Shown here one piece after another: positions 32,748 through 51,535 of a stretch of 64,000 nt of DNA. Position 1 is the stretch's first letter. Every line of letters starts with the position of its first letter. A program made the position numbers and the translations under genes. This DNA is from Evansella sp. LMS18. Lineage in GTDB: Bacteria > Bacillota > Bacilli > Bacillales > Salisediminibacteriaceae. The notes under the pieces were generated by a model, which was given only the letters and a program-made list of their open reading frames with translations, was not told the DNA's origin and searched no databases. The stretch lies in assembly GCF_024362785.1 (NCBI RefSeq), contig NZ_CP093301.1, forward strand, positions 2,480,001-2,544,000. Direction: 5' to 3'.

Positions 32748-33410
32748 TAGGGAGGTGAAGGTTCTTGCATGCGTGGATTTCTGGGGGAATTATGAGAAAG
32801 GTAATGCTGGAGCGTCCATCATGCCCGATCTTGGGAAGAATCGAATAGAAAGGTAACGCTGGAGCGTCCATCGTGCCCGAACAGTTGGGGAATCGAGTGG
32901 AAAGGTAACGCTGGAGCGTCCATTGTGCCCGAACAGTTGGGGAATCGAGTGGAAAGGTAACGTTGGAGCGTCCATTGTGCCCGAACAGTTGGAGAATCGA
33001 GTAGAAAGGTAATGCTGGAGCGTCCATCGTGCCCGCTCGGAGAAAAAAACAAAGCAAGCGGTAACGCGAGAGCGTGTCACATACCCGCTTGAGGAAAAAA
33101 TTAAAGCAAGCGGTAACGTGAGAGCGTCTCACATACCCGCTCGAGGAAAAAAACAAAGCAAGCGGTAACGCAAGAGGTTCTCGCATGCCCGCTCGCAGAA
33201 AAAATCGAAGCCAGCGGTAACGCAAGAGGGTCTTGCATGCCCGCTCGAGGAAAAAAACAAAGCAAGCGGTAACGCGAGAGGTTCTCGCATACCCGCTTGA
33301 GGGAAAAAACGAAGCAAGCGGTAACGCAAGAGGGTCTTGCATGCCCGCTCGAGGAAAAAAACAAAGCAAGCGGTAACGCGAGAAGACCTCGCGCTCCTCG
33401 AAAAAGGGCA
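32748..33410. repeat. 52-bp tandem repeat array A (12 units, two sequence classes)
   Basis: Repeats of GGTAACG or GGTAATG start at 32800, 32852, 32904, 32956, 33008, 33060, 33112, 33164, 33216, 33268, 33320 and 33372, exactly 52 bp apart. A worn partial unit precedes them. The first five units read GGTAACGCTGGAGCGTCCAT with a CCGAACAGTTGG linker; the rest read AAGCGGTAACGC plus CTTGCAT/CTCGCAT with a CCGCTCGAGG linker. Each unit has an inverted repeat, and the linkers pair with the next unit (for example CCGCTTG 33085 with CAAGCGG 33107). Non-coding, between convergent genes. Confidence 0.92.
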
Positions 33411-33464
33411 ATCCTACTACCCAAGTAATGAATGAACCCAATCATTCATTAGTACTAAAAGACC

Positions 33465-33503
33465 AATAAAGACAGCCTGGAATTATCAGGCTGTCTCTTT
33501 ATT
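33465..33503. terminator. Terminator between array A and the YusW-like gene
   Basis: Hairpin AAAGACAGCCTG/CAGGCTGTCTCTTT with AT-rich flanks, about 70 bp beyond the stop of the leftward YusW-like gene. Confidence 0.8.
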
Positions 33504-33570
33504 AAATGAAAATTTTACCGCTTTTTCCTCGATATCCCCTTACCCGGAAGATAAACTCCACAAAATCTAA

Positions 33571-34239
33571 TTAATACGAACGTTCTATTTCAAGCTCATC
33601 TCCGTTTTGATATTCAATCTCCAGTTCAAATTCTGTTAGTTCATCTTCGGTGATTTCAAGATAAGAGAGAACCTGATCAATTGCATCATCTTCTGAAGTG
33701 TCAGGGAAGATTTGAAGCTCCTGGAGCATTGCTTCCATTTCATCAATTGCCTCAGAGCCTTCACGCTCAGATTCATCTCCATTTTCTTTTTCAATTTCAG
33801 CTTCTGTTTCCCCGTTGTCATCTTCGTATTCAAATTCCCACTGGCTTCCGTCCTGAAAATCAATCTCCAATTCAAATTCTCTTACACCGAATGCGAGTGT
33901 GCTTGATGTGTCCTCGCCTCCGTTGTTTTCTGCTGTACTATCTTCATCGGCATCATTATTATCAGCGGATCCGTTATCAGCAGCATCATTATCGACCTCG
34001 TCAGTATTGGTATCAGCATTTGTATCTGTATCATCATCTAAATTATTATTCTCCACAGCTTCGTCTGCATTGTTGTCAGCCGGGGAGTTATCGTTTGTAT
34101 CATTTACTTCTGTTCCCTGGTTTGTATCACCATTCTGGTTAGTTGTATTGTCTGTTGTATCGTTACCTTCACCGCAGGCAGTCACCAACATTGCGGCTGA
34201 AAGTGCTGCGGTGCTCAGTAAGTATTTTTGTTTGCGCAT
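33571..34239 (-). CDS. YusW-like lipoprotein with Asp/Asn-rich linker
   Basis: A 222-residue lipoprotein. The signal peptide ends in the lipobox LVTACGE (Cys near 22). Residues 25-110 are a low-complexity stretch rich in Asp, Asn, Glu and Thr. The C-terminal part (about 115-222) begins FGVREFELEIDFQDGSQWEFEYED and ends EFELEIEYQNGDELEIERSY, the paired pattern of the YusW-like domain. Surface anchored; function unknown. Very acidic, which suits a high-salt or alkaline exterior. The linker is encoded by degenerate ATC/TCG-rich runs, so its length probably varies among strains. Confidence 0.85.
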   Translation of the reverse strand: MRKQKYLLSTAALSAAMLVTACGEGNDTTDNTTNQNGDTNQGTEVNDTNDNSPADNNADEAVENNNLDDDTDTNADTNTDEVDNDAADNGSADNNDADEDSTAENNGGEDTSSTLAFGVREFELEIDFQDGSQWEFEYEDDNGETEAEIEKENGDESEREGSEAIDEMEAMLQELQIFPDTSEDDAIDQVLSYLEITEDELTEFELEIEYQNGDELEIERSY

Positions 34240-34539
34240 AATAACAACTTCCTTTCTGCGTTAAAAATGATTAGTTCCAGAGTGTACATTACCCGATTTT
34301 GTTCCATGTAATCATATCCCCTGTATGGGGAAATTCAGTGTTGTTAATTGCTTTAGAAAAGGAGGGCCGCAAAGTCTCCACCAGGACGCAATGAAGTAAA
34401 CAACCGCAATACCAGAAAAAACGAGGCTGGTTTAAATATTTGGAAATCAAGGAAAAGTGGTTTTAAGAATAAGGCAATAAAAGAAATTTACAGAGATTAA
34501 CAGAAAATATGAATGACCAATGAAAGGAGGCTGTGTTCA

Positions 34540-34632
34540 TTGGAAGGTGTTTCAATGGTACTCATACTGTTCCTTCTGCTAGGGGCCATATTCGGACTAG
34601 TTGCATGGGCAGCTATGAGAAAGAGAAAATAA
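34540..34632 (+). CDS. 30-residue single-TM peptide, unknown
   Basis: TTG start with AAAGGAGG 9 bases upstream. The product begins with a short polar head, forms one hydrophobic helix (LILFLLLGAIFGLVAWAAM) and ends in a basic RKRK tail. A strong terminator follows at 34713. The perfect ribosome site argues that it is real. No family recognised; it could be a small regulator of a membrane protein. Confidence 0.55.
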   Translation: MEGVSMVLILFLLLGAIFGLVAWAAMRKRK

Positions 34633-34712
34633 AAAGCAGCGATAATGAGAGGAGAGGTGGATGATGCGGATAAATCCTGCAGAAACCATCTGCTGCTACC
34701 CTGTTTAAACTT

Positions 34713-34750
34713 AAAAAATACGATGCTCCTGGAAGGGGCATCGTATTTTT
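34713..34750. terminator. Bidirectional terminator
   Basis: AAAATACGATGC-T-CC...GG-G-GCATCGTATTTTT, serving the 30-residue peptide gene on the plus strand and the BrkB-type gene on the minus strand. Confidence 0.88.
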
Positions 34751-34823
34751 CATATTTTCACACAAAATTGTGCGGGGTCTGGCCCCCGAACTTTTGGTCG
34801 CCCGAACACTTGGCTCCAAATTT

Positions 34824-35609
34824 TTAGTCTTCTTTCAGGGCTGCATTGATTTCTCCGCCGAGAAGGACGATGATCGAGGAGAAGTGGAACCAGACCATCA
34901 GGGCGATGACTGTTCCTATGGCTCCGTACGTTGCTGTGTAGTCTGCAAAATTATTTAAATAATAGGTGAATCCTAAGGATGTCAGCTGCCAGCCGATCGT
35001 GGCAAATACAGCCCCAATATAAACATCTTTCAGGGCGAGGCGCAGACTTGGCCCGGTGACATATAACACGGTAAAAACAATAAAGAGTATTAGTGAACTT
35101 ATACCCCAACGCAGGAGGTCAAACTCAAAAAACGTAAATCCAACTGCCAGAAATTCTTTCAATGCCCCTCCGATAACCTGAAGTACAAGAGCTACCAGCA
35201 CAACTGCAAACATGCTGATTGTGAGAAGAATAGAGATAACCCTTGATTTAATCATGCCTCTTTCTTCTGTAACATTGTATGCAAGGTTAAGGGAGCGAAG
35301 GATGGAGTTGAGGGCAAGCGAGGCTGTCCATAAAGTAAATAAAATACCAAAGGACATTAGCCCTGTATGCTGAGCTTCTGTTATTACGTCCCACTGGTTC
35401 TCCACTACCAGAAGCACACCTGACGGGATAATATCATCGCTGATAAGTCCCAGGTCGTCTTCAAAAGTAAAAGGCAGGAAAGACATCAAGGTAATGATAA
35501 ATATGAGAAAAGGAAACAAAGACAGGATTAAGTAATAAGAACACTGGGCTCCCAGGTCAATTAAGCCATGCTCCTTAAACCGTATATATAAAGACCGCAG
35601 AAACTTCAT
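34824..35609 (-). CDS. YihY/BrkB-family membrane protein
   Basis: A 261-residue protein with about six membrane helices. It starts MKFLRSLYIRFKEHGLIDLGAQCSYYLILSLFPF, the hallmark of YihY family proteins, and has FGILFTLWTASLALNSILRSLNLAYN in the middle and WFHFSSIIVLLGGEINA near the end. AGGGAGGA precedes the ATG. Though once annotated as ribonuclease BN, the family is a membrane transporter-like group of unknown substrate. Monocistronic. Confidence 0.93.
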   Translation of the reverse strand: MKFLRSLYIRFKEHGLIDLGAQCSYYLILSLFPFLIFIITLMSFLPFTFEDDLGLISDDIIPSGVLLVVENQWDVITEAQHTGLMSFGILFTLWTASLALNSILRSLNLAYNVTEERGMIKSRVISILLTISMFAVVLVALVLQVIGGALKEFLAVGFTFFEFDLLRWGISSLILFIVFTVLYVTGPSLRLALKDVYIGAVFATIGWQLTSLGFTYYLNNFADYTATYGAIGTVIALMVWFHFSSIIVLLGGEINAALKED

Positions 35610-35689
35610 GTGTGATTTCCTCCCTATGGTGCTGCCGGTTAATATCAGCTATTTAATAAATTCTTCATTCTGTTTATCCCGATGTAACC

Positions 35690-35816
35690 GTCCGTAAAAC
35701 TCCCTCCCCAACACAGGGGGAGAAGCGAAGATGTTCAGGCGGGTGATAACGGACGCTAACATCCCGATTGGTTCAACTAACAATCAGTGGGGGATAAATA
35801 AAATCCCCACTGATTG
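35690..35816 (+). ncRNA. Candidate structured RNA or transposon-end structure with four helices
   Basis: Consecutive inverted repeats: H1 CTCCCTCCCC (35700) with GGGGGAG (35716); H2 GATGTT (35730) with AACATC (35758); H3 CAATCAGTGGGG (35781) with CCCCACTGATTG (35805). GTCCGT (35690) also pairs with ACGGAC (35749), which would make a pseudoknot with H2. The segment TTGGTTCAACTAAC lies between H2 and H3. No open frame. The orientation is chosen by H3 acting as a 3' stem. It could equally be an orphan transposon end. Confidence 0.5.
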
Positions 35817-35820
35817 AAGG

Positions 35821-36285
35821 TTCACTTTATCGGAAAAGCCTGGCAGCCTTTTTAAATATATAGAAAATACCTAAGTGATTAATAACCCTGTACGTAAATA
35901 TTCCTCCTGATTGGAGAAGTTTATGTAATTAATTTGTTATTGGGTTAAAAAGGCGGCAGCACTGGACTTCGAGAACGTTTATCCTAATTCTTTATAATGA
36001 AACTTCCTGAATAAATAGTCACACTTTTTTCTTGAACAGGTGCCCTATTGTCTAAATATTCCTGTAAAAGCAGAGTCTGCATTCCTTATATTACCAGAAA
36101 AAACATTCTTTTTAAATGTGTATAAAACTCCCAACGACCGATATATCTAACAAAATTCTACCGTTAAAATAGTAGTTACAACAGGATTCTCCATACATAT
36201 ACTCACATTCTGACAAAACAGGAGGTGTCTTTTTTTAGGTAATTGTTTCGCCTTACTAAAAAAATCTTAGAAGGGAATGGTTTTT
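35821..36285. other. AT-rich leader region before the M14 peptidase gene
   Basis: No gene and no strong repeat. It contains CAGGAGGTGTC at about 36219 without a sensible start after it. The promoter of the peptidase gene must lie here, but I cannot place it with confidence. Confidence 0.35.
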
Positions 36286-37314
36286 TTGAAAAAGACTATT
36301 ACACTGATCTTGGCTGCTTTGCTTATTATGTCATTGTTGCCTATTCAAGCGGGAGCAGTAGGAGAGGGACCTAATTACAATGGAAATGAAACAATTAAAA
36401 ATGAAAGACTGACTAGTAATGAAGACCTTGTGAAGCAACTGGAGCGTGCGGACAGCCGTTCAGAAAATATAGACCTGGAAGTGATAGGACAATCTGTACA
36501 AGGGCGTGACCTTCACTTAGTTAAGTTTGGGAACAATCCTGAAAACCCTACAATTCTTTTCCTTACACAGCAGCACGGAAATGAAGCTCTTATTACAGAA
36601 GGGGCATTAAATGTTATTAAAACTCTGTCCGGTAACAGCAGACAAGTGCGTGAGCTGGCCGACGAGGTAAACGTATTTTTTGTACCTCGTTTAAACCCTG
36701 ATGGGGCTATTGGAGATGTTAATTTTGATATTTCCCATTACCATGGTGGAGGACAGTCTACCAGGTTTAACGCTAATGGCGTTGACTTAAACCGTGACCA
36801 TATGGACCGGAATGAACCAGAAACAGCGGCACTTCATTATAATGTGCTTCAGCAATATGACATTGATTATCTTGTGGATTTCCACCACCAGGGAACTCAG
36901 TCCGCGGTGGATGACAGATATGTTTCCGGATCTATCCTGTATCCAACTAATTCTCAGGTAGACCCTCAGGTAGTGGAAATGTCCAAGCAGCTTGGCGCAG
37001 TAATGTATGATGCGGTTGAAGACAGAGGGTGGGGCCACCTGGGTAAATATAATGGTGGATCAGCTACAACAATCTCCCGTAACGGGTTAGCGTACGAGTA
37101 CGATATAGCAACTCTTCTTTTTGAAATGAGAGGTATGTCGGACCATGAAGGTTCATGGGCGATCCTTGGACAAAAGAGCAACGGCTACTTAATCCAGCAA
37201 GCGGTTGTTTCTATGGAAGCTGCAATTGAAGCAATTGCTGACCGTTCTATTGCAGAAGCTGACATCAGCTTCTGGGATACCCTCCCATTCCAGAGAAACA
37301 GAGGAGAAGAATAA
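36286..37314 (+). CDS. Secreted M14-family zinc carboxypeptidase
   Basis: A 342-residue exported metallopeptidase. The signal peptide is MKKTITLILAALLIMSLLPIQAGA. The zinc site reads QQHGNEALITEGA (HxxE, near residue 96-99), with FVPRLNPDGA, NGVDLNRDHM, LVDFHHQGT (third zinc His) and the catalytic Glu in LLFEMRGMSDHEGS. The frame opens at ATG 36277, but TTG 36286 is preferred because AAGGGA lies 8 bases before it, while it is one base from the ATG. It trims amino acids from peptides or cell-wall material outside the cell. Followed by a strong terminator. Confidence 0.9.
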   Translation: MKKTITLILAALLIMSLLPIQAGAVGEGPNYNGNETIKNERLTSNEDLVKQLERADSRSENIDLEVIGQSVQGRDLHLVKFGNNPENPTILFLTQQHGNEALITEGALNVIKTLSGNSRQVRELADEVNVFFVPRLNPDGAIGDVNFDISHYHGGGQSTRFNANGVDLNRDHMDRNEPETAALHYNVLQQYDIDYLVDFHHQGTQSAVDDRYVSGSILYPTNSQVDPQVVEMSKQLGAVMYDAVEDRGWGHLGKYNGGSATTISRNGLAYEYDIATLLFEMRGMSDHEGSWAILGQKSNGYLIQQAVVSMEAAIEAIADRSIAEADISFWDTLPFQRNRGEE

Positions 37315-37321
37315 TCTCCAG

Positions 37322-37355
37322 AAAGAGCAGAAGCGTGCAGCTTCTGCTCTTTTTA
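37322..37355 (+). terminator. Terminator after the M14 peptidase
   Basis: Perfect 13-bp stem AAAGAGCAGAAGC/GCTTCTGCTCTTT with T-run. Confidence 0.9.
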
Positions 37356-37437
37356 TTCGAGGAATATGCGGGGACGATGTTAATTCTAATTATACGGGGG
37401 AATAATTACTCTAAAAGAAAAGGGAGAGTATTCCAAA

Positions 37438-38301
37438 ATGAGTCAGGACATTGATTTCCAATTCACAGAACCAAACGGCATTACACTTCACACCGCTGTT
37501 GCAGGGCCTGAAGATGGCCCCCTTGTTATCTTGCTTCACGGTTTTCCGGAGTTTTGGTACGGCTGGAGAAACCAGATTGAACCTCTTGCCCGTGCTGGAT
37601 ACAGAGTAATCGTCCCGGACCAGCGCGGTTACAATTTGAGCGACAAGCCGACGGGAATCGAAAACTATACGATTGATAAATTAAGAGATGACATTATTGG
37701 AATAATCGATGCCATGGGAAGAGAGAAAGCAGCCATCATCGGCCATGACTGGGGGGGGGCTGTTGCCTGGTACTTAGCTGCAACAAGGCCTGAACTTGTG
37801 GAAAGGCTGATCGCCATAAATATCCCTCACCCTGAAGCTATGAAAAAAATCATGTTAAGATACCCGCCGCAATGGCTTAAAAGCTCCTATATGGCGTTTT
37901 TCCAGCTGCCGCAATTACCTGAAGCGGTTTTAGCAGGGAATAACTACCGGCTTATGAAACAAGCACTTCTTAAAACTTCAAAAACAGAAGTTTTTTCCGA
38001 CTCTGATCTGGAAAAGTATGAAGAAGCATGGTCACAGGAAGGTAGTATAACCGCGATGCTTAATTGGTACAGGGCAATCAGGTATGGAGGCCTAAGCGCT
38101 TTTGACGGGGAAAAAATTGATGTCCCTGTAAGGATTATCTGGGGTATGGGGGACCAATTCCTGAGCATGAAGTCTGCGAAAGCCAGTCTTGAATACTGCG
38201 AAAATGGGGAGCTTATTTTTGCAGGCGAAGCAACCCACTGGGTGAATCATGAACAACCATCTCTCGTTAACAAACAAATTATCAATTTTTTAAGCAAATA
38301 A
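37438..38301 (+). CDS. Alpha/beta hydrolase, epoxide-hydrolase/dehalogenase-like
   Basis: A 287-residue cytoplasmic hydrolase. HGFPEFWYGWRNQI gives the oxyanion loop, AAIIGHDWGGAVAWY the nucleophile Asp (rather than Ser), RIIWGMGDQFLS the acid, and EATHWVNHEQP the catalytic His. An Asp nucleophile with HGxP is typical of epoxide hydrolases and haloalkane or fluoroacetate dehalogenases, so that subgroup is favoured; the real substrate is unknown. AAAGGGAG precedes the ATG. Not clearly in an operon. Confidence 0.88.
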   Translation: MSQDIDFQFTEPNGITLHTAVAGPEDGPLVILLHGFPEFWYGWRNQIEPLARAGYRVIVPDQRGYNLSDKPTGIENYTIDKLRDDIIGIIDAMGREKAAIIGHDWGGAVAWYLAATRPELVERLIAINIPHPEAMKKIMLRYPPQWLKSSYMAFFQLPQLPEAVLAGNNYRLMKQALLKTSKTEVFSDSDLEKYEEAWSQEGSITAMLNWYRAIRYGGLSAFDGEKIDVPVRIIWGMGDQFLSMKSAKASLEYCENGELIFAGEATHWVNHEQPSLVNKQIINFLSK

Positions 38302-38424
38302 AATAACCAGAGGCCGCTCTAACCCATTATTCGATGTTCCGTTCCAGGTTAGAAACCAGAGAGTACCTGCCCTTCCTGTTGAAAAAGTCACACCCTCTCC
38401 TGCCCGGAAAAGGGGGGTATAAAC

Positions 38425-40555: not shown

Positions 40556-41266
40556 TTGCTTACACAAGATCAGATAAATACATTGAGGGACAGGCTCCTG
40601 GAGCTTAAAAAGGAGCACGAAGAACGTCTTGCGCCGGAAGAAAATGAAACTGGCAACGAAAGAAGAGCGGAAGATACTGGTGAAATTTCCCGTTACGATA
40701 ACCATCCTGCAGATGAGGCAACCGAGTTATTTGAACGGGAGAAGGATACAGCATTAAATAATCATTCGCGGCAGCGGCTTGAGGAAGTGGAAAAAGCACT
40801 TCAGGCCATGGATGATGGAGAATACGGGAAATGTGAAGTTTGTGGAGAGGAAATACCATATGAACGCCTTGAGATTGTACCGGAAACTTTAAAGTGTGTG
40901 AAACATGCACAAGAGGAAGGCCGTGAGAGATACCGGCCAGTTGAGGAAGAGGTACAAAAAGCCTCTCTTGAAGACGATTCTGAAGCAAAGGAAAGGGTCG
41001 CCTTTGATCGAAAGGACGCATGGGAGACGGTCAGTGACTATGGCACTTCCCAGTCACCGTCAGATTACACAGACTCAGACAGGCAGTATAACAATCAGCA
41101 GGAGGACTCAGAAAATAATACTGGAATTACTGAAGACGTGGAGGAAGTTCCGGTTTCAGATATTGAAGGGAATGATACTGGGGTAACCTCAGACAGGAAA
41201 GAGCATGAAGGCGGGTCAGGCAGCCGTTCTGACCTCGATGACGATCCTAAAAATCATGAAAGGTAA
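40556..41266 (+). CDS. yteA: YteA-family (DksA/TraR-type zinc finger) sporulation protein, paralogue 1
   Basis: A 236-residue protein. An N-terminal coiled segment (DQINTLRDRLLELKKEHEERL) leads into SRYDNHPADEATELFEREKD, then the zinc site CEVCGEEIPYERLE...CVKH (about 98-122; Cys-Cys-Cys-His). The rest is acidic and disordered, with SPSDYTDSD. This matches Bacillus YteA, which is made late in sporulation. The start is TTG, with GGAGG 7 bases before. A paralogue lies at 42371, with tandem array B between them. Confidence 0.88.
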   Translation: MLTQDQINTLRDRLLELKKEHEERLAPEENETGNERRAEDTGEISRYDNHPADEATELFEREKDTALNNHSRQRLEEVEKALQAMDDGEYGKCEVCGEEIPYERLEIVPETLKCVKHAQEEGRERYRPVEEEVQKASLEDDSEAKERVAFDRKDAWETVSDYGTSQSPSDYTDSDRQYNNQQEDSENNTGITEDVEEVPVSDIEGNDTGVTSDRKEHEGGSGSRSDLDDDPKNHER

Positions 41267-41400: not shown

Positions 41401-42283
41401 GAGCAATCCTATAGCTCAAGGGACGCAAGAAGGCCTTGCATCCCTTGAACAGTAGCAATTCTACAACTCAAGGGACGCAAGAGGTCCTTGCATCCCTTGA
41501 ACAGTAGCAATTCTACAACTCAAGGGACGCAAGAGGTCCTTGCATCCCTTGAGCAGGGGCGATCCTGCAACTGAAGGGACGCAAGAAGGCCTTGCATCCC
41601 TTGAACAGGAGTAAATCTACAACTGAAGGGACGCAAGAGGTCCTTGCATCCCTTGAGCAAGTGCAATCCTGCAACTGAAGGGACGCAAGAAGGTCTTGCA
41701 TTCCTTGAGCAGGTGCAATCCTGCAACTGAAGGGACGCAAGAAGGTCTTGCATCCCTTGAGCAGGGGCGATCCTGCAACTCAAGGGACGCAAGAAGGCCT
41801 TGCATCCCTTGAACAGGAGTAAATCTACAACTGAAGGGACGCAAGAAGGCCTTGCATCCCTTGAGCAGGGGCGATCCTGCAACTCAAGGGACGCAAGAAG
41901 GCCTTGCATCCCTTGAACAGGAGTAAATCTACAACTGAAGGGACGCAAGAGGTCCTTGCATCCCTTGAGCAAGTGCAATCCTGCAACTGAAGGGACGTAA
42001 GAAGGCCTTGCATCCCTTGAACAGGAGTAAATCTACAACTCAAGGGACGCAAGAGGTCCTTGCAACCCTTGAGCAGGGGCGATCCTGCAACTCAAGGGAC
42101 GCAAGAAGGCCTTGCAACCCTTGAGCAGGGGCGATCCTGCAACTCAAGGGACGCAAGAAGGCCTTGCATCCCTTGAACAGGAGTAAATCTACAACTGAAG
42201 GGACGCAAGAAGGCCTTGCATCCCTTGAGCAGGGGCGGTCCTATAATTCAAGGGACACAAGAGGTTTTTGCATCCCTTGTTAC
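41401..42283. repeat. 52-bp tandem repeat array B (17 units)
   Basis: GGGACGCAAG (or close variants) starts at 41420 and recurs every 52 bp to 42252, seventeen units without one slip. Each unit has arms CAAGGGACGCAAG and CTTGCATCCCTTG around a 4-6 base loop, and a linker with a second small stem that differs between units but stays paired (GTAG/CTAC, GCAGG/CCTGC). The constant C in the left arm faces A in the right arm: a mismatch in plus-strand RNA, a G.U pair in minus-strand RNA. It lies between the two yteA paralogues. No plus-strand open frame. Confidence 0.95.
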
Positions 42284-42370
42284 TTCCATAAAATCCTAGC
42301 AAATTCCCGCCGTATCTGCCGCATACTAGAACAGAGCAGAATTTTGTGATGCTTGAGGAGGTGCGGAGTT

Positions 42371-43087
42371 TTGCTAAGCGAAGAGCAAATACAGACATTG
42401 CGGCAAGTGCTTACTGAAGAAAAAGAAAGCCTGGAAAAAAGGCTTAAAGATCATCATTACGGACTTGATCTGGAACATGCCACAGAATCCATGGATGAGC
42501 TTTCAAGGTACGATAACCACCCTGGGGACCTTGGCACAGAGCTATATGAGCGGGAAAAGGACCTGGCTCTCGATGAGCATTCCGAGTATACGTTAAAGGA
42601 AATTGATCTTGCACTGAACGCCATTGCGGAAGAAACGTACGGGAAATGCGAAAAGTGCGGTGACCCTATTCCATACGAGCGGCTGGAAGCTGTGCCAACC
42701 ACCCGGAGATGCGTAAAGCATGCGGAAGATAACACTGTATCAAATACAAGACCAGTGGAAGAGGATGTATTAAAGCCTCCTTTTGGAAAATTTGAATACG
42801 ATGAAAGCAACGAGCAGCAAACGTTCTTTGACGCCGAGGACTCATGGCAGACAGTTGCCAAATTTGGAACTTCGGAGACACCCTCTGATTTTTCCGATAC
42901 AGACAAAGACTATAACGCCATGTATGTGGAAGGGGAAGAGGACACAGAAGTGCCTGAGGAAATTGAAGATATTCTCACTGCAGACATTGAAGGGAAATTC
43001 AGCGGTGTCAGCGTGGACCACCATAAGTATGAAAAATACCTGGATGAAAATGACGTTGATACAATTATGGACAGAGATGAAAGTTAA
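42371..43087 (+). CDS. yteA: YteA-family (DksA/TraR-type zinc finger) sporulation protein, paralogue 2
   Basis: A 238-residue paralogue of the 40556 gene: LSEEQIQTLRQVLTEEK, ELSRYDNHPGDLGTELYEREKD, zinc site CEKCGDPIPYERLE...CVKH, and the tail TPSDFSDTDKDYN. The frame opens at 42353, but TTG 42371 is preferred, since GGAGGTG lies 7 bases before it and the product aligns with the start of paralogue 1. Its end abuts the second IS copy, only 6 bp after the stop, so it lost its own terminator or it uses the IS palindrome. Confidence 0.87.
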   Translation: MLSEEQIQTLRQVLTEEKESLEKRLKDHHYGLDLEHATESMDELSRYDNHPGDLGTELYEREKDLALDEHSEYTLKEIDLALNAIAEETYGKCEKCGDPIPYERLEAVPTTRRCVKHAEDNTVSNTRPVEEDVLKPPFGKFEYDESNEQQTFFDAEDSWQTVAKFGTSETPSDFSDTDKDYNAMYVEGEEDTEVPEEIEDILTADIEGKFSGVSVDHHKYEKYLDENDVDTIMDRDES

Positions 43088-43201: not shown

Positions 43202-44773
43202 TTATCTGTTCTTGGCGGTGTACTTTCTCAAGTTCACCGCCATGAATGCAAACCCTAATTCATTTTTTACCTTCTCTTTGCCTCTTACCGACATACGAGT
43301 GAAACCCAAATTAGCCTTCAAAAATCCGAAGACTGGTTCCACATCAATCTTACGTTTGCCGTAGATTTCGCCAGTTTTCTCATCTGAAAGCTTCTGTCTG
43401 ATGTATTCTTTTTGTTGTTCCCATTTTTCGTTGTATTGTATTTTTCGGTTATGGCCTTCTTTCGCCTTGGTGCATTGGGAACGGAATGGGCAGTCTGAAC
43501 AGTCCTCACATTGGTAGACTTTAAATGTGCGTGTAAAACTGCCTTTATCTTTTCGATTCGATAGGTAACGGAACGTCAACTTTTGCCCGTTTGGGCATAA
43601 AAAAGAATCTGTTTCCTCGTCATACTCCCAATTGGCAGAGTTGAACTCGTTATTTTTATACCTCTTTTTCTTCTCTTTACGGTACATATTATATGTAATT
43701 AGTGGTGTGCACTCCCGATGATTTATAACATCTTCGTAATTTTGTTCACTGCCATACCCTGCATCAGCGACTATGTACTGGGGCAGCTTGAAGAAACCTT
43801 CCTCAATCTTATCCAGAAAAGGAATAAGGGTGCGTGTATCTGTTGGATTGGCGAATACATCAAAAGCTAGTGTATATTGTCCTTCTGTCGCAATTTGCAC
43901 ATTATACCCTGCTTTAAGCTGGCCGTTCTTCATGTAATCATCTTTCATTCGCATAAAAGTGGCATCCTGATCGGTTTTGGAATAACTGTTTCGCTCTCCA
44001 AATATGGACATGTCGTTTTGGTATTTTTGTTTGCGTACCAGAAAATCTTTGTATTGTTTGAGGTACTGCTTTGGTCCTTTACGTTTTGAGCGAAGTTGTT
44101 TACGTTCCTTTCCTTCTGTACTTTCTTCAATCTTTCTATCGAATTCCTCCACTTTCTCGTCAAGCTTTCCCACTACATCAAGGAGCTCTTTAGCAGATAG
44201 TTCCTCTAGATTTTCCCGTTCTATTTCCGGAATAATGTTCTTTTCCAGTAATTCTTCATACATTTGGTTGGACTTCTCCACCAAAGCTGCACTGTATTTT
44301 TCCGTCGCTTTACGCCAGACAAAGGTAAACTTGTTGGCGTTCGCTTCGATTTTCGTTCCATCAATAAAAATCGCTTCTTCTTCAATGAGTTTTTCCTGCA
44401 CAAGCTGGCAGCGAAACTGGACGAAGCACTGGCGTAGTAGTTCTTTTACGTCTTCGTGGACACGGAAGCGATTGATAGTACGGTAACTCGGTTCATATCC
44501 TTGAGCCAGCCACATCATACGGATACTATCCTTTAATAACGCCTCGATCTTTCTTCCGGAGAAAACAGATTGTGTGTATGCACATAAAATTACTTTCATC
44601 ATCATCCGCGGATGGTAAGCAGGACAGCCAGTTTCACGTAAAAAGCTAACGAATGCTTCATTTGGGATCTGTTCCACGAGGTCATGAACGGTGAAAGCTA
44701 TATCATTTTCCTGGAGTTTTACTTCTAAATCTAACGGCAAAACCACTTGATTCATGTTATAATATTTAAACAT
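43202..44773 (-). CDS. IS1182-family DDE transposase (copy 2)
   Basis: Translation identical over 523 residues to the transposase at 4983-6554, with the same DDE residues and cysteine cluster. Intact. The palindromic terminator at 43131-43173 follows it, shared by yteA paralogue 2 from the other side. Confidence 0.95.
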   Translation of the reverse strand: MFKYYNMNQVVLPLDLEVKLQENDIAFTVHDLVEQIPNEAFVSFLRETGCPAYHPRMMMKVILCAYTQSVFSGRKIEALLKDSIRMMWLAQGYEPSYRTINRFRVHEDVKELLRQCFVQFRCQLVQEKLIEEEAIFIDGTKIEANANKFTFVWRKATEKYSAALVEKSNQMYEELLEKNIIPEIERENLEELSAKELLDVVGKLDEKVEEFDRKIEESTEGKERKQLRSKRKGPKQYLKQYKDFLVRKQKYQNDMSIFGERNSYSKTDQDATFMRMKDDYMKNGQLKAGYNVQIATEGQYTLAFDVFANPTDTRTLIPFLDKIEEGFFKLPQYIVADAGYGSEQNYEDVINHRECTPLITYNMYRKEKKKRYKNNEFNSANWEYDEETDSFLCPNGQKLTFRYLSNRKDKGSFTRTFKVYQCEDCSDCPFRSQCTKAKEGHNRKIQYNEKWEQQKEYIRQKLSDEKTGEIYGKRKIDVEPVFGFLKANLGFTRMSVRGKEKVKNELGFAFMAVNLRKYTAKNR

Positions 44774-45331: not shown

Positions 45332-45703
45332 TTGAAGCATTTAAGGGCGTTAGTAATTAAATCATTAATGATTACGTTAGTGCTGGTCATCCTCCTTACA
45401 ATGTTTAATGGCTACCCGTTGCTGAACACCATTTTCCTGTCTTTGCTGATCACAGGGCTTGCTTATGTTATCGGTGATCTCCTGATACTTCAGCGGGCTA
45501 ATAATACGGTATCAACAGTAGCTGATATAGGGCTTTGTACTTTAAAAATTTGGGTGTTAGCTCCATTCATTCTTGGAGCGGCCGTACCATTCAGCCTTGC
45601 CTTTATTTCAGCATTGTTAATTGGCGGCGGCGAATGGTTCTTCCATAAATATATGGCAGGAACCGTTCTGGATGAGGAAGATGATCTTGTAGGCGGGCAT
45701 TAA
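45332..45703 (+). CDS. DUF2512 membrane protein (YndM-like)
   Basis: A 123-residue protein with four membrane helices. It starts MKHLRALVIKSLMITLVLV, then TIFLSLLITGLAYVIGDLLILQRANNTVSTVADIGL, and ends in a short acidic tail; this is the DUF2512/YndM pattern found in Bacilli. The start is TTG, with AAAGGAG 7 bases before. Function unknown; often found with sporulation genes. It is the first gene after the second IS. Confidence 0.85.
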   Translation: MKHLRALVIKSLMITLVLVILLTMFNGYPLLNTIFLSLLITGLAYVIGDLLILQRANNTVSTVADIGLCTLKIWVLAPFILGAAVPFSLAFISALLIGGGEWFFHKYMAGTVLDEEDDLVGGH

Positions 45704-45827
45704 ATATAAACGCCTGAAGGTTTTCGTGTGCGAAATCAATGGTTTAATGAACGAAAACGGTGATGCAATGTGCGGAATCAGCTGTTCAATGAACGTAAAC
45801 CACGCTTGAATGCACGAAACATTGATC

Positions 45828-45853
45828 TTGGAGGTTGATCTTGGAGGTGAATT
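45828..45853 (+). promoter_or_regulatory. Tandemly duplicated ribosome binding region
   Basis: TTGATCTTGGAGG occurs twice head to tail just upstream of the 45857 TTG start. Only the second GGAGG is correctly spaced (7-8 bases). The duplication is a sign of recent slippage. Confidence 0.6.
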
Positions 45854-45856
45854 GAT

Positions 45857-46048
45857 TTGGCTCAGGATTATTTGGCAGTACATGAAAAAGCAGAGCTGCA
45901 TGAAATGTTAATGTTTAAAACTAACTGCCTGCAGAAGTCCCAGGCGATGCAGAGCCTGGTTCAGGACCAGGAGCTGAAAACCCTTTTGCAGCAGGATGTT
46001 AAAGCGTCTCAGACTAATATTAAGGCTTTACAGCAATTACTTAGCTAA
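45857..46048 (+). CDS. CotF-family N-terminal half (YraE-like)
   Basis: A 63-residue protein with the CotF N-half pattern (YLAVHEKAELHEMLMFKTNCLQKSQAM...LLQQDVKASQTNIKALQQLL). The start is TTG, with GGAGGTG upstream. It is followed 15 bp later by the C-terminal half. B. subtilis has the same split arrangement (yraE and yraD). Spore coat or coat-associated by family. Confidence 0.82.
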   Translation: MAQDYLAVHEKAELHEMLMFKTNCLQKSQAMQSLVQDQELKTLLQQDVKASQTNIKALQQLLS

Positions 46049-46063
46049 TAGGGGTGAAAACTT

Positions 46064-46366
46064 ATGTATCAAATGCAGAACCCGATGAATGACCAGGCTG
46101 TTGCCGCGGATTTGCTTCTTTCAGCAAAGGCAGGAGTGAAAAATTGTGCTGCGGCTCTTACGGAAGCCCATTCTGTTAATGTACGTAAAGCGTTGAACCA
46201 GCAGCTGCAGCAGGCAGTGATGTTTCAGCAGCAGGTTGCTGACTACATGGTAAGCAAAGGCTATTATGAGCCGTATAACCTTGAAGAGCAAATCGCAATG
46301 GATCAGCAGGCTACCGACATGGCACTGCAAAACAGCCAGGATACTCCTGGCAGCCAGCTTCAGTAA
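46064..46366 (+). CDS. CotF-family C-terminal half (YraD-like)
   Basis: A 100-residue Gln-rich protein: AADLLLSAKAGVKNCAAALTEAHSVNVRKALNQQLQQAV and SKGYYEPYNLEEQI, the same as the C-half of the fused 39891 protein. GGGGTG precedes the ATG. It forms a two-gene unit with the N-half, and a strong terminator follows. Probably sporulation-specific. Confidence 0.85.
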   Translation: MYQMQNPMNDQAVAADLLLSAKAGVKNCAAALTEAHSVNVRKALNQQLQQAVMFQQQVADYMVSKGYYEPYNLEEQIAMDQQATDMALQNSQDTPGSQLQ

Positions 46367-46386
46367 AGATGTCATAAGTTTATGAG

Positions 46387-46420
46387 CACACTACCCTTTT
46401 GTGAGGGTGGTGTGTTTTTT
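46387..46420 (+). terminator. Terminator after the split CotF-like genes
   Basis: Hairpin CACACTACCCT/AGGGTGGTGTG around TTTGTG, followed by six T. Confidence 0.85.
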
Positions 46421-46426
46421 ATATGA

Positions 46427-46660
46427 GAATTTCATATATAGACTTTGCATAAAAAAAGACGAATTACTTTTCGGTTGCAGGGTAAGACGGCGACTCTGGC
46501 AGGAAAAGCATGAAAAGCTGAAAATCCATTTTTGACGGCATTCAGCCGTCAAAAATTAGTTGAAGCCGTGCCCGAAGAACTTCCCTCTGTAGCGTAAATC
46601 GAACAGCAAAGTAACATTGTTCGTATTAATGATGAATCTTGAATTATGAAATTGATTCAT
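46427..46660 (+). repeat. MITE-like intergenic repeat, copy 2
   Basis: Matches 906-1153 in reverse complement. It has the same inner dyad (GCATTCAGCCGTCAAAAA) and ends in GAATTATGAAATTGATTCAT. It occupies the space between the split CotF genes and the ars operator. Confidence 0.8.
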
Positions 46661-46708
46661 ATATGACCTGAAAGGTATCTTTACAAAACCTTAACATATA
46701 AACGGTTG

Positions 46709-46734
46709 ATTATATAAATATTCACTTATATAAT
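46709..46734 (+). promoter_or_regulatory. Likely ArsR operator of the arsR-acr3 operon
   Basis: Inverted repeat ATTATATAA-N8-TTATATAAT, ending 25 bp before the GTG start of arsR. Its position over the likely -10 region suits autorepression by ArsR, released by arsenite. Confidence 0.6.
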
Positions 46735-46759
46735 GGACGATGAATGGAGGGTGGAAAAA

Positions 46760-47107
46760 GTGAAAACCATAAAACCTGTACAGATAGAAGAGGCTTCCAG
46801 CTTGTTGAAGCTCCTTGGGGATAAAACAAGGTTAACAATTATCTCCTTGCTTTTAAAAGATGAATTGTGTGTGTGTGAACTTGTGGAAATACTAAAAATG
46901 AGCCAGCCTGGCATCAGCCAGCATATAAAGAAGCTGAAAGCGATGGAACTGGTGAAAGAAAGGCGGCAAGGCCAGTGGATTTTCTACAGGCTTAATACAG
47001 ATGCGGAACTCTATCCCCTGCTTGAATCTGTCGCAGCCCATCTTCCTGATCAGGGGGATAAGCTGAAAGATCTTGAAAATAACGGGCTGAGAGTCTGTTG
47101 CAAATAA
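46760..47107 (+). CDS. arsR: ArsR arsenic-responsive repressor (first arsenic operon)
   Basis: A 115-residue winged-helix repressor. ELCVCELVEILKMSQPGISQHIKKLKAMELV gives the metal-binding CVC motif in the recognition helix region and the DNA-binding helix. The frame opens at ATG 46733, but that lies inside the operator, and GTG 46760 has GGAGGG 8-9 bases upstream, so the GTG is preferred. The protein also ends in CCK. It leads the operon arsR-acr3-arsC-arsD-arsA. Confidence 0.94.
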   Translation: MKTIKPVQIEEASSLLKLLGDKTRLTIISLLLKDELCVCELVEILKMSQPGISQHIKKLKAMELVKERRQGQWIFYRLNTDAELYPLLESVAAHLPDQGDKLKDLENNGLRVCCK

Positions 47108-47127
47108 TTAGTCTGGGGGAGTGACAT

Positions 47128-48219
47128 GTGGATAAAGAACAGGAATTACTCGAAGAAAAGGAAGGTAAAGGAATAAGTTTTTTTGAAAGATACTTAACAG
47201 TTTGGGTGGCCCTTTGTATTATTATCGGTATTTCTGTAGGCCAGTGGCTCCCAGTGGTGCCTGAAACCCTGAGCCAGTTTGAATACGCCCAGGTTTCCAT
47301 TCCGGTGGCAATCCTCATCTGGCTGATGATCTATCCGATGATGGCCCAAATCGATTTTACGAGTATTGTAAATGCCGGGAAAAAACCAAAAGGACTGGCT
47401 GTCACTTTAGTTGTAAACTGGCTGATTAAACCGTTTACGATGCTGTTTTTCGCCTGGCTGTTTTTCCGGGTCATTTTCGGTCCGTTTATTCCCGATGAAC
47501 TTGCAGTACAGTATATCGCCGGGGCTGTGCTGCTCGGAGCGGCGCCTTGTACCGCGATGGTTTTCGTATGGAGTTATCTTACAAAGGGTGATGCAGGATA
47601 TACCCTCGTACAGGTTTCTGTAAATGATATCATTCTGATTTTTGCCTACGGGCCGATTGTAATGCTCCTTCTGCGCCTGAATAATGTGGTTGTCCCGCTG
47701 GACACAGTATTGTTCTCCGTGCTCGCCTTCGTAGTCATCCCACTGGCGGCAGGCTGGCTGTCACGAGTGTACTTCATCAGGAAAAAGGGCCGGGACTGGT
47801 TCGAGAACGTATATCTGAAAAAAGCAGGTAAATTTACGATTGTGGGATTACTGCTTACGCTCATAATCATTTTCTCTTTCCAGGGAGAAGTCATTTTAAA
47901 TAATCCTTTCCATATAGGGCTTATCGCAGTTCCATTGATCATCCAGACGCTGTTTATTTTCGCCATCGCATACTGGTGGGCGAAAAAATGGCGGCTCGAG
48001 CACAGTGTTGCCGCACCTGCCGCAATGATCGGCACAAGCAACTTCTTTGAACTGTCAGTAGCGGTTGCTATCGCTTTGTTCGGACTTAATTCCGGAGCAA
48101 CATTGGTGACAGTTGTTGGTGTGCTTGTGGAAGTCCCGCTTATGCTTCTCCTTGTAAGAATTGCCAATAACACAAGACACTGGTTTCCTGTGGAAATACA
48201 GCTTCCGGAGAAAAATTAA
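47128..48219 (+). CDS. acr3: Arsenite efflux transporter Acr3
   Basis: A 363-residue permease with ten membrane helices. RYLTVWVALCIIIGISVGQWLPVVP opens it, with VLLGAAPCTAMVFVWSYLTKGDAGYT (conserved Cys near residue 140) and VAAPAAMIGTSNFFELSVAVAIALFG. This is the Acr3 family rather than the unrelated ArsB. It pumps arsenite out, alone or driven by ArsA. GTG start with GGGGGAG upstream. Second gene of the operon. Confidence 0.96.
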   Translation: MDKEQELLEEKEGKGISFFERYLTVWVALCIIIGISVGQWLPVVPETLSQFEYAQVSIPVAILIWLMIYPMMAQIDFTSIVNAGKKPKGLAVTLVVNWLIKPFTMLFFAWLFFRVIFGPFIPDELAVQYIAGAVLLGAAPCTAMVFVWSYLTKGDAGYTLVQVSVNDIILIFAYGPIVMLLLRLNNVVVPLDTVLFSVLAFVVIPLAAGWLSRVYFIRKKGRDWFENVYLKKAGKFTIVGLLLTLIIIFSFQGEVILNNPFHIGLIAVPLIIQTLFIFAIAYWWAKKWRLEHSVAAPAAMIGTSNFFELSVAVAIALFGLNSGATLVTVVGVLVEVPLMLLLVRIANNTRHWFPVEIQLPEKN

Positions 48220-48255
48220 CGATAACTAAACCAATAAGTAAAGGGGAAAACCGAA

Positions 48256-48675
48256 ATGTCAAAACCAATCATTTACTTTTTATGCACAGGAAATTCCTGC
48301 CGAAGCCAGATGGCGGAAGCGTGGGGGAAAAAATATTTAGGCGATAAGTATGATGTCTATTCCGCCGGTATCGAAGCACACGGAGTGAACCCGAAAGCCG
48401 TGGAAGCGATGAAGGAAGCTGGCATCGACATTACTGACCAGACGTCAGATACGATCGATCAGGATCTTTTGCAGAAAGCAAATCTTGTGGTCACTTTGTG
48501 CGGGCATGCGAATGACGTCTGTCCGGCAACACCTCCTGACAGAGACCGTGTCCACTGGGGTTTTGACGACCCGGCAAAAGCGGAAGGAACCGACGAAGAA
48601 AAGTGGGAAGTGTTCCGCCGTGTCCGTGACGAAATAGGCGAGAGAATTAAAAGATACGCCGAGACTGGAAAATAA
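48256..48675 (+). CDS. arsC: Thioredoxin-coupled arsenate reductase
   Basis: A 139-residue low-molecular-weight-phosphatase-fold reductase. Cys10, Cys82 and Cys89 ([16 protein letters not shown] and [17 protein letters not shown]) match the catalytic triad of B. subtilis ArsC exactly. It turns arsenate into arsenite for Acr3/ArsA to export. A site AAAGGGG precedes the ATG. Third gene of the operon. Confidence 0.97.
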
Positions 48676-48697
48676 TTTTCAAAGAGGAGATGTTAAT

Positions 48698-49051
48698 ATG
48701 GCAAAAATAGAAGTGTTTGATCCTGCGCTGTGCTGCCCTACAGGAGTATGCGGTCCGAGTGTGGACCCGGAATTGACGAGAGTGGCAACAGCTCTGTTTC
48801 TCCTTGAAAAAAAGGGTGTTGATGTAAACCGCTATAATCTGGCTACGGAACCGGACGCATTCATTATAAATGAAAAAGTAGAAGTGCTGCTCACGGAACG
48901 TGAAACAGAGGCGCTTCCTTTAACTCTTGTTGACGGGGAAGTTAAAAAGATTGGCGGATACCCGACTAACGAAGAGTTCGCTGAGTGGAGCGGTGTCCCG
49001 GCTGGAGAGCTGAATAAAAAAGACGAAAAAACTAAACTGAACTTGTTATAG
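48698..49051 (+). CDS. arsD: Arsenic metallochaperone ArsD
   Basis: A 117-residue thioredoxin-fold chaperone. FDPALCCPTGVCGPSVDPEL holds Cys12, Cys13 and Cys18, the arsenite-binding triad. It passes arsenite to ArsA. It lies 22 bp after arsC and 15 bp before arsA. The extra C-terminal vicinal Cys pairs of the E. coli plasmid protein are absent, as in many chromosomal ArsDs. Confidence 0.96.
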   Translation: MAKIEVFDPALCCPTGVCGPSVDPELTRVATALFLLEKKGVDVNRYNLATEPDAFIINEKVEVLLTERETEALPLTLVDGEVKKIGGYPTNEEFAEWSGVPAGELNKKDEKTKLNLL

Positions 49052-49066
49052 AGAGAAGGAATAAAT

Positions 49067-50842
49067 ATGTTTCAAGAATTCTCACCTGAACAAATCCCGA
49101 AAACCCCTTACTTATTTTTCACCGGTAAGGGAGGCACCGGGAAAACTTCTGCAGCTAGTGCTTCAGCGGTTGCTCTGGCAGACCAGGGAAAAAAAGTCTT
49201 AATCGTAAGCACGGACCCTGCCTCAAATCTTCAGGACGTTTTTGATATGGAAATCGGTGAAAATATTACGGCTATTCCAGCTGTGTCAGGATTATCAGCC
49301 GTTAATCTTGATCCTGAAGCCGCTGCTGCAGCATACAGGGACAAGATCGTGGGCCCTTACCGTGACAGGTTTCCCGCAGCAATAGTTTCCCAGATGGAGG
49401 AACAGCTTTCCGGGGCATGTACGGTAGAAATTGCCGCTTTTGATGAGTTTACAACCATTCTCACAAAGGAAGAATTGACCTCCCAGTATGACACCATTAT
49501 TTTTGACACAGCACCAACAGGTCATACACTGAGGCTTCTGCAGCTGCCGAATGCCTGGACAGACTTTCTTGAAGAGAGCACCCAGGGGGCATCCTGTTTA
49601 GGCCCCCTCTCCGGTCTCGATGAGAAAAAATCATTATACGAGTCTGCGGTGAATGCTCTGGCCGATGAAAAGAAAACGACTCTTCTCCTTGTTGTGCGCC
49701 CGGATGAGTCATCTATAAGAGAAGGGGGGCGTGCAGCGGCGGAACTGGCTGAAACAGGGTTAAAAAATCAGATGGCTTTAATGAATGGGGTGTTCCAGCC
49801 TGTTGATGATGTCGACGAAAGTGCAGCGGCATTGTTTTCCAAACAGCAGGCGGCAATCAGTAAAATGGAGCATCTGTTAGAGGGGGTGCCTGTTCACCAG
49901 CTTCCATATGTTCCATATCCTCTGACTGGAATTGGTGCTCTGCGAAGTTTTCTCCAGGGGGATGTTTCAGAAGTCGCCGGAGACGCGGCTGAACAGGAAA
50001 AGCCTGATCTGCCCGGGCTTGGAGCGCTCGTAGAAAAGCTCGCTGAAAAAACAAAAGGTGTAATCATGACAATGGGAAAAGGCGGCGTTGGCAAAACAAC
50101 GATCGCATCTGCAGTCGCAGCCGGCCTTGCCGCAAAAGGAAAAAAGGTCCATTTGACAACGACCGACCCGGCAGCCCATATAGAACATGTCATTAAAGGC
50201 GGGAATATACCGGGGGAGATTTCCGTAAGCCGAATCGACCCGGAAAAAGAAATAGAGCATTACAAACAGGAGGTGCTCTCTAAAGCACGGGAAGAGCTTG
50301 ACGAGGAAGGCCTTGCTTATTTAGAGGAGGATTTGAGTTCTCCATGTACGGAAGAAATAGCAGTTTTCCGTTCTTTTGCAAATGCTGTGGAGAAAGCGGA
50401 CTCTGAATTTGTGGTGATTGACACAGCGCCAACAGGACATACGCTGTTGCTTCTTGATGCGTCCCAGTCTTATCACAAGGAAATTGAACGTTCCTCCGGA
50501 GAAGTGCCTGATTCTGTTGTGAAACTCCTCCCTCGTCTTCGTAACAAAGAGGAAACAGATGTAATTGTTGTAACACTCCCGGAAGCAACCCCTGTGCTGG
50601 AAGCATCCCGGCTTGAAGAAGACCTGGAACGGGCAGAGATAACTCCAAGCTGGTGGGTGATTAACCAAAGCCTTGCAGCAGCTGACACAACCGATCCAAT
50701 TCTTAAAGCGAGAGGCAATCATGAAGTCCGTTGGATCAGAGAGGTATGGAGCCGGGCGGAAAATACAGTGCTGATCCCCTGGATTAAGGATGAAATCCAG
50801 GGAGCAGACGCATTGCGGAAACTGGCTTCCTCGAGAATTTAA
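49067..50842 (+). CDS. arsA: Arsenite efflux ATPase ArsA
   Basis: A 591-residue protein made of two homologous ATPase halves. P-loops are GKGGTGKT (20-27) and GKGGVGKT (near residue 338); each half has DTAPTGHTL. The three arsenite cysteines are kept: SGACTVEIA (Cys118), GASCLGPLSG and SSPCTEEIA. With Acr3 it forms an ATP-driven pump. AGAAGGA precedes the ATG. Last gene of the operon; no terminator follows, only tandem array C starting within a few bases of the stop. Confidence 0.96.
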   Translation: MFQEFSPEQIPKTPYLFFTGKGGTGKTSAASASAVALADQGKKVLIVSTDPASNLQDVFDMEIGENITAIPAVSGLSAVNLDPEAAAAAYRDKIVGPYRDRFPAAIVSQMEEQLSGACTVEIAAFDEFTTILTKEELTSQYDTIIFDTAPTGHTLRLLQLPNAWTDFLEESTQGASCLGPLSGLDEKKSLYESAVNALADEKKTTLLLVVRPDESSIREGGRAAAELAETGLKNQMALMNGVFQPVDDVDESAAALFSKQQAAISKMEHLLEGVPVHQLPYVPYPLTGIGALRSFLQGDVSEVAGDAAEQEKPDLPGLGALVEKLAEKTKGVIMTMGKGGVGKTTIASAVAAGLAAKGKKVHLTTTDPAAHIEHVIKGGNIPGEISVSRIDPEKEIEHYKQEVLSKAREELDEEGLAYLEEDLSSPCTEEIAVFRSFANAVEKADSEFVVIDTAPTGHTLLLLDASQSYHKEIERSSGEVPDSVVKLLPRLRNKEETDVIVVTLPEATPVLEASRLEEDLERAEITPSWWVINQSLAAADTTDPILKARGNHEVRWIREVWSRAENTVLIPWIKDEIQGADALRKLASSRI

Positions 50843-50846
50843 TTGG

Positions 50847-51535
50847 GGGCGTCTCGCATACCCGCTCGGGGGAAAATGATTGCCGAGCGATAACGCTGGA
50901 GCGTCTCGCATACCCGCTCGCGGGGAAAATGATTGCCGAGCGGTAACGCGAGAGCGTCTTGCATGCCCGCTCGCGGGGAAATGGTAGGCAAGCGGTAACG
51001 CGAGAGCGTCTTGCATGCCCGCTCGGGGGGAAATGGTAGGCAAGCGGTAACGCGAGAACGTCTTGCATGCCCGCTCGGGGGAAAATACTGGCCGAGCGGT
51101 AACGTGAGAGCGTCTCGCATGCCCGCTCGGGGGGAAATGGTAGGCAAGCGGTAACGCGAGAGCGTCTTGCATGCCCGCTCGCGGGGAAATAATAGGCAAG
51201 TGGTAACGCTGGAGCGTCTTCCATACCCGCTCGGGGAAAATACTGGCCGAGCGGTAACGTGAGAGCGTCTTGCATGCCCGAACTTCGGAAAACCCGCATA
51301 GAAAGGTAACGCTGGAGCGTCCATCATGCCCGAACTTCGGAAAATCCGCATAGAAAGGTAACGCTGGAGCGTCCATCATGCCCGAATTTCGGAAAACCCG
51401 CATAGAAAGGTAACGCTGGAGCGTCCATCATGCCCGAACTTCGGAAAATCCGCATAGAAAGGTAACGCTGGAGCGTCCATCATGCCCGAACATCGGAAAA
51501 CCCGCATAGAAAGGTAACGCTGGAGCGTCCATCAT
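50847..51535. repeat. 52-bp tandem repeat array C (13 units, two sequence classes)
   Basis: Thirteen GGTAACG-type units start at 50889, 50942, 50994, 51046, 51098, 51150, 51202, 51253, 51305, 51357, 51409, 51461 and 51513, spaced 52 bp with only one 53 and one 51. A partial unit precedes. Units 1-8 have CCGCTCG linkers that pair with CGAGCGG or CAAGCGG of the next unit; units 9-13 have GAGCGTCCATCATGCCCGA with a CCGAACTTCGG hairpin. These are the same two classes as in array A, in the reverse order. Starts 5 bp after arsA. Confidence 0.93.

Follow-up and report, generated by a model that had tools for sequence, protein, structure and literature searches.

Constant-period 52-bp satellites in Evansella sp. 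LMS18 and the IS256-family elements that insert in them

In this paper we describe three tandem arrays, A, B and C, in a window of 64,000 nucleotides of the Evansella sp. LMS18 chromosome (NZ_CP093301.1, positions 2,480,001 to 2,544,000), and we identify them as members of the 52-bp satellite class that Subirana and Messeguer described in Bacillus in 2021 (PMC8161180). The period of these arrays is fixed while their sequence drifts, their units carry a dyad of defined anatomy, and insertion sequence (IS) elements of an IS256 clade are enriched both in these arrays and in those of a shorter, 20-21-bp class, whatever the array sequence. We favour, with moderate confidence, the explanation that the arrays are helically phased satellites, putatively coated by a protein, whose structure is read by the IS256 transposase. 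As far as the literature searched shows, the dyad geometry measured here with its covariation, the orientation to replication and the IS256 targeting are additions to the published description of the class.

Tandem Repeats Finder (TRF) places arrays of period 52 at 32795-33383, 41401-42279 and 50849-51535 of the window. An anchor scan counts 12 units in array A and 17 in array B, with every spacing 52, and 13 in array C, where the spacings are 52 except for one of 53 and one of 51; a chain search gives array C 14 units, and the count for array A omits a thirteenth anchor match at 32730, which is 70 bp off. These unit counts and spacings agree with the first-pass annotation of the window, and its order of unit classes on the plus strand (class 1 then class 2 in array A, the reverse in array C) also holds. 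In the minus-strand reading, array A consists of class 2 (about 33030-33410) and then class 1 (about 32787-33035), while in array C the class 2 units lie at about 50849-51280 and the class 1 units at about 51253-51535. Arrays of the same kind are present at dozens of further loci in this genome, far beyond chance. The genome is a single contig of 4.90 Mb that includes the window, and DNA queries with arrays A and B gave 94 and 65 matches, which merge into 62 clusters; three of these are within the window, and the stretches analysed around the other 59 contain 64 TRF regions. A filter for a mean score above 15 and at least three units, with loci L088, L095 and L121 left out, retains 56 arrays and 611 units, with spacings of 52 (473 times), 51 (75), 53 (6) and 54 (1); some of the arrays (L102 and L124) have a period of 51 throughout. 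Where we count 60 or 61 arrays, the threshold is at least two units and L088 and L121 are included. About 60 arrays, A, B and C being three of them, is a lower bound for the chromosome, since the DNA search did not pick up those that surround the IS copies at 2404246 and 2616106; the arrays located here account for 0.67% of the genome. A model search of the same genome scored the best 150 of 1733 candidates, and the arrays were then collected via the DNA search. Their sequence families include A1, A2, B and CAGGGAACGAA, all of like period, and beyond the A and B types a family GTCAGGGAACGAAT...ATTCGTTCCCTGAC likewise has a period of 51-52. The genome also holds a second class of arrays, whose period is near 20.5 bp (21, 41, 61, 82 and 103) and whose cores are CGAAA/GCGATA-like, at 28415-28487 of the window and at L099, L105, L106, L123 and others.

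Subirana and Messeguer described Bacillus repeats of 51-53 nt and of 20-21 nt with constant size, variable sequence and unknown function, and remarked on short sequences that occur together with their reverse within one repeat (PMC8161180). They proposed that the repeats act in protein polymerisation on DNA or as small RNAs, and in B. coagulans such repeats are reported to be transcribed (PMC8161180, PMC8625621). Our arrays resemble this class in their period of 51-53 nt with at least four repeats, in the presence of several families of the same period and different sequence in one genome, in their short length and in their host group. The first-pass annotation, which knew of no named element with these properties, was mistaken on this point. 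The main text of PMC8161180 makes no mention of palindromes, orientation, the leading strand, transposition, IS256 or hairpins. Its authors found the sequences to be species specific with few exceptions, a descriptive rather than a defining feature of the class, whereas the pattern studied here is common to four genera, Evansella, Anaerobacillus, Fredinandcohnia and Lederbergia. Of 27 published consensuses that we tested, an inverted repeat was significant at p<0.05 in 19 and at p<0.01 in 12, while eight fell short of 0.05. The largest published family, B. coagulans 1_52_139, has arms of 15 and a loop of 5, the same geometry as the units here.

An exact-pattern search of a collection of genome contigs found 32 stretches, of which 21 are from Evansella clarkii, nine from Anaerobacillus arseniciselenatis and one each from Fredinandcohnia quinoae and Lederbergia citrisecunda. 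TRF gives a period of 52 in the stretches of the first three and shows no array in that of L. citrisecunda. In a 400-kb sample of each of three genomes, the periods in E. clarkii include 51-52, 40-42, 82 and 156, and those in a genome that we take as E. cellulosilytica (G003) are 52, 155-156 (three units) and 42, as well as 15, 24, 89 and 91. The G003 array sequences are unrelated to those of LMS18, and one of them is the published B. cellulosilyticus family 37_52_10. In the third genome (G021) most periods are 20-21 bp or multiples of this, and units of 32-57 bp form a family of their own. These results support the earlier proposal that length and fold are kept despite sequence drift, and the five turns of B-DNA that it offered are still a good reason for a period of 52 bp. 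The annotation had also considered that arrays with variable periods, or missing from related genomes, and without expression would be ordinary satellites. Here the outcome is divided: wherever arrays occur the period stays at 51-53, but the sequence family itself is matched in only two of nine genus genomes and two of 35 family genomes, the identical two (model matches at E<=1e-4, with the best 150 candidates per genome scored). Among other arrays seen in these genomes are long-period arrays of 185 and 193 bp in E. clarkii (L183, L191 and L192), and the separate G021 family is built on TGCTCCTGCGGTTACTCGTCGCAG with periods of 32, 40, 54, 56 and 57 (L162, L163, L166, L174, L175 and L177).

Arrays lie at the same loci in LMS18 and E. 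clarkii. The E. clarkii flanks are about 90% identical, and among the stretches compared both flanks are present for 22 of the 61 LMS18 arrays. At the four loci whose flanks lie close together, E. clarkii retains about one to three units, which indicates that the loci are old and the copy number fluid; at shared loci 12 units here correspond to about one there, and 21 to about 1.5. Such fast change at fixed loci, together with the patchy spread through the genus, is what would be expected of neutral or selfish satellites that arise by slippage at hairpins, take their period from the amplification process and are merely recognised by IS256 as DNA structure. We consider this explanation unlikely, as slippage alone does not explain a period of 51-53 for unrelated sequences across genera.

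Over four genera, 63 units of the A and B types align without gaps across 52 columns, so the earlier statement that array B has no more than a core in common with A and C was too cautious. The alignment resolves an arm of 15 nt, a loop of 5, a second arm of 15 and a linker of 17, and within the hairpin a 2x2 internal loop separates the outer stem of 6 bp from the inner stem of 7 bp. In the A2 and B families the unit is thus an imperfect 15-5-15 dyad followed by a 17-bp linker. On the minus strand the array B hairpin reads CTCAAGGGATGCAAG, 5-nt loop, CTTGCGTCCCTTGAG. Stem columns are paired in 91.9% against 80.0% after shuffling, and the covariation score is 0.411 against 0.213, values that none of 500 shuffles reached; the units were preselected for all five inner pairs, while the outer stem is free of this selection. 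In class 1 units the outer stem is mostly lost. As RNA, the typical array B unit of Table 1 folds on both strands (-32.1 minus, -25.3 plus), and the one class 1 unit folded does no better than shuffles on either.

Stem covariation is also what would be expected if the arrays were transcribed to strings of hairpins, acting as a sponge or processed to small RNAs, with the fold kept as RNA. For an A2 unit, folding is far stronger on the minus strand than on the plus strand (-21.5 kcal/mol, z -4.33, against -14.1, z -0.93, for the class 2 unit of array A in Table 1), 106 of 149 A2 units have a U.G pair at columns 18-34, and for B. coagulans there are RNA-seq transcription, published RNA folds and a discussion of sponges (PMC8161180, PMC8625621). 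Other observations fit this role less well, and we judge it improbable. The comparison of G.U with A.C mismatches as a test of the folding strand is equivocal: outside the U.G column, A.C exceeds G.U in A1 (49 vs 29) and is not rare in A2 (77 vs 166) or B (104 vs 141). A hairpin string needs no invariant linker length, and IS256 elements also lie in arrays of 20-21 bp, a unit too short to form a 15-5-15 hairpin. The upstream neighbour gene is on the sense strand at only 29 of 60 arrays, for which reason we set aside a reading as 3'-untranslated-region hairpins. We likewise set aside a known Rfam RNA, as no covariance model matched the arrays, either in the whole window at the gathering score or in array A alone at E<=0.1. 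The sole Rfam match in the window is BsrC (43.6 bits, 51724-51806), which is outside the arrays and adjoins array C.

One identical open reading frame (ORF) lies between the members of four pairs of arrays and encodes an IS256-family transposase (406.9 bits against NCBIfam NF033543, cut-off 150, in a profile run on three proteins). The elements resemble the IS256 family in their inverted terminal sequences and target duplications of 8-9 bp as well as in this profile. All six copies in LMS18 lie within a 51/52-bp array, and as their proteins are 100% identical to the query, the copies look recent. A search of 397 genomes of the order found homologues at E<=1e-60 in 45. We examined 75 loci, consisting of the six LMS18 copies, 29 given by the search at one per genome and 40 picked before their flanks were seen. 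Loci were usable when both flanks reached at least 200 bp, which left out three of the 75 and, in a class-wide set, two of 27. An array is found on at least one side in 57 of the 72 usable loci, the same repeat on both sides in 39, and no array in 15. The 39 in-array loci comprise 6/6 in LMS18 and 33/66 elsewhere in the order (12/26 of the search-given and 21/40 of the picked loci), and 32 are of the 52 type, six of the 20 type and one of another type. Two of them (L232 and L276) are weak, and without both the count is 37/72. Genomes without an in-array copy include G100 (0/4), G149 (0/4) and G281 (0/3).

For comparison, IS1182 homologues taken through the same pipeline have an array on at least one side in 0/30 and the same repeat on both sides in 0/30; with 1.5-kb flanks an array is near in 1/30 and the element inside in none. 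Random positions in three genomes have an array near in 40/450 and the same repeat on both sides in 11/450. In array-rich genomes, with 30 loci of each type analysed out of 57 matches to IS256 and 73 to rve-type transposases, IS256 elements are near an array in 29/30 and inside in 23/30, against 7/30 and 2/30 for the rve type (inside, p=3.5e-8); 20 of the 30 IS256 places repeat the 75-locus set, and seven of the ten new ones are inside. The query of the IS1182 control is 100% identical to two transposase genes of this family in the window (4983-6554 and 43202-44773). In one genome (G203) two rve-type transposases lie within 21-bp arrays (L316 and L331), and the short class may thus be a target for a further IS. 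A scan of viral contigs gave one stretch.

The use of repeats as IS targets has been described for repetitive extragenic palindromic (REP) elements by Tobes and Pareja in 2006 (PMC1525189), where intergenic palindromes likewise act as insertion sites and five of seven copies of ISRm5, an IS256-family element, are associated with REPs in a type 2 association. There the targets are the REP sequences, whereas here they are tandem arrays of fixed period and unrelated sequence. Within the open-licence literature searched, a scope that most subscription papers lie outside, we found no paper that ties IS256 elements or a clade of them to such satellites, REP targeting being the nearest.

An exact target duplication of 8-9 bp borders the IS ends at 66 of the 75 loci and was not found for one LMS18 copy (L202). 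Of the 66 empty sites joined from these loci, 40 have an array across the junction, eight have one no more than 60 bp away and 18 have none; the junction-spanning periods are 51-53 in 24, 103-106 in eight and 20, 21, 41, 60 or 82 in eight. At sites of the 52 type, 14 of 32 target centres are at most 1 bp from a dyad axis (Kolmogorov-Smirnov, KS, p=1.7e-4), 11 of them at the linker midpoint and three at the assigned hairpin axis; of the other 18 centres, 13 are 2.5-6.5 bp away from the hairpin axis. The period fit is poor for L222 and L262 (identity 0.28 and 0.26), and in a clean-period subset, from which nine weak-period sites were left out, 11 of 23 centres are at most 1 bp from an axis. It is likely, though not proven, that the insertions are phased with the unit axes. 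The exactness of the duplications, L202 excepted, also bears on the idea that IS256 elements build the arrays as by-products of transposition. The close association of the two would follow directly, but we regard this as very improbable: the copies look recent, six of them stand against about 60 arrays in LMS18, and E. clarkii is array-rich yet has no IS256-family match (E<=1e-10).

The A-type arrays are also oriented with respect to replication. Judged from the GC skew of the analysed stretches, the origin lies between 1.67 and 2.14 Mb and the terminus is near 4.5-4.6 Mb, and in 26 of the 30 A-type arrays the GCGTTACC strand is directed against replication (p=5.9e-5). In small sets the counts are 3/3 for the CAGGGAACGAA type and 1/3 for unclassed arrays, and three of the six listed exceptions are near the terminus, where the boundary is uncertain. 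The leading strand is purine-rich in 56 of 61 arrays and in 184 of 258 non-ORF segments (p=4.7e-4); as those segments are biased too, part of the orientation bias is general. The E. clarkii arrays are orthologous and would not count as independent evidence.

Under the explanation that we favour, the period would be kept because the dyads must sit on one face of the double helix, 52 bp being five turns and 20.5 bp two. Dyads on one face may allow the array to be coated by a DNA-binding protein, most likely, following the idea of Subirana and Messeguer, or to adopt a regular DNA structure. The IS256 transposase would then treat the array structure as a landing pad, with its 8-bp target tending to the linker midpoint or to a few bp off the hairpin axis. 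Several observations weigh against this explanation. The analysis identified no binding protein for the arrays, and one A2 strand folds better as RNA, which a pure double-stranded DNA role does not demand. When symmetry was ranked at the exact centre of the target, a stricter test of phase, the result was not significant for the 32 sites of the 52 type (KS p=0.43, 6/32 in the top tenth) or for the 26 sites without a junction-spanning array; eight sites of the 20 type gave KS p=0.02 with small n. The axis-offset test followed this rank test and was prompted by the clustering of offsets, which makes its p-value post hoc to that degree, and the sites are partly dependent, several coming from one genome and some from one array family. 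The array-rich genomes were picked because arrays had been seen at their IS256 sites, a choice that inflates the IS256 count there, while the rve control, drawn from these genomes, is free of that bias. Orientation bias is absent in the B-type arrays (14/25). Lastly, none of the 21 class-wide IS256 homologues of 46-52% identity lies in an array, though distant hosts may lack arrays. Array targeting is therefore not a trait of the whole IS256 family and looks like the mark of one IS256 clade, again with the reservation about distant hosts. The other four of the 25 usable class-wide loci have at least 53% identity, and three of them are in arrays. These three (L370-L372) have periods of 21, 64 and 61, the latter two being those of L371 and L372, and the 61-bp unit resembles a strong hairpin.

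The arrays of the window and their representative units are given in Table 1. As the first-pass annotation had it, they are not CRISPR (clustered regularly interspaced short palindromic repeats) arrays, a reading that we rejected: CRISPR repeats are likewise regular, short and partly palindromic, but their spacers are unique, whereas in arrays A-C the entire 52-bp unit repeats and unique spacers are absent. Open frames overlap the arrays, and seven such frames had no Pfam match save a weak DUF2415 score (25.1 bits, with no single stretch passing) in an array B frame; as 52 is not a multiple of three, we judge that the arrays do not code for a peptide repeat. Genes of the yteA (DksA-like) family lie on both sides of array B (40556-41266 and 42353-43087).

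Table 1. Arrays A, B and C and representative units, in window coordinates
Feature	Position	Strand	Basis
Array A, 12 x 52 bp	32787..33410	-	TRF, anchor scan, chain search
Array B, 17 x 52 bp, near-palindromic hairpin	41406..42289	-	TRF, anchor scan
Array C, 13-14 units	50824..51551	-	TRF, anchor and chain scans
Class 2 unit scoring highest alone (model R1, 67.1 bits)	33307..33358	-	array A
Typical array B unit	41770..41821	-	RNA folding
Class 1 unit	51357..51408	-	RNA folding

The papers that describe repeats of constant 52 or 20-21 bp with drifting sequence leave the reason for this constancy open. A transposon clade that inserts in both kinds whatever their sequence suggests that their geometry is recognised in cells, and it links the two classes. 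The clade also supplies a tool, as a transposition assay could separate the contributions of period, symmetry and sequence, and its targeting offers a path to the host factor. As a more speculative extension, which we put forward tentatively and think rather less probable than the explanation above, the 52-bp and 20-21-bp satellites of Bacillales may be one thing: phased platforms of five and two turns for a putative chromatin-like fibre of host protein, at least some of them oriented uniformly with respect to the replication fork, with the IS256 clade landing in exposed linkers. If this were true, IS256 insertion sites would be a natural in vivo footprint of that fibre.

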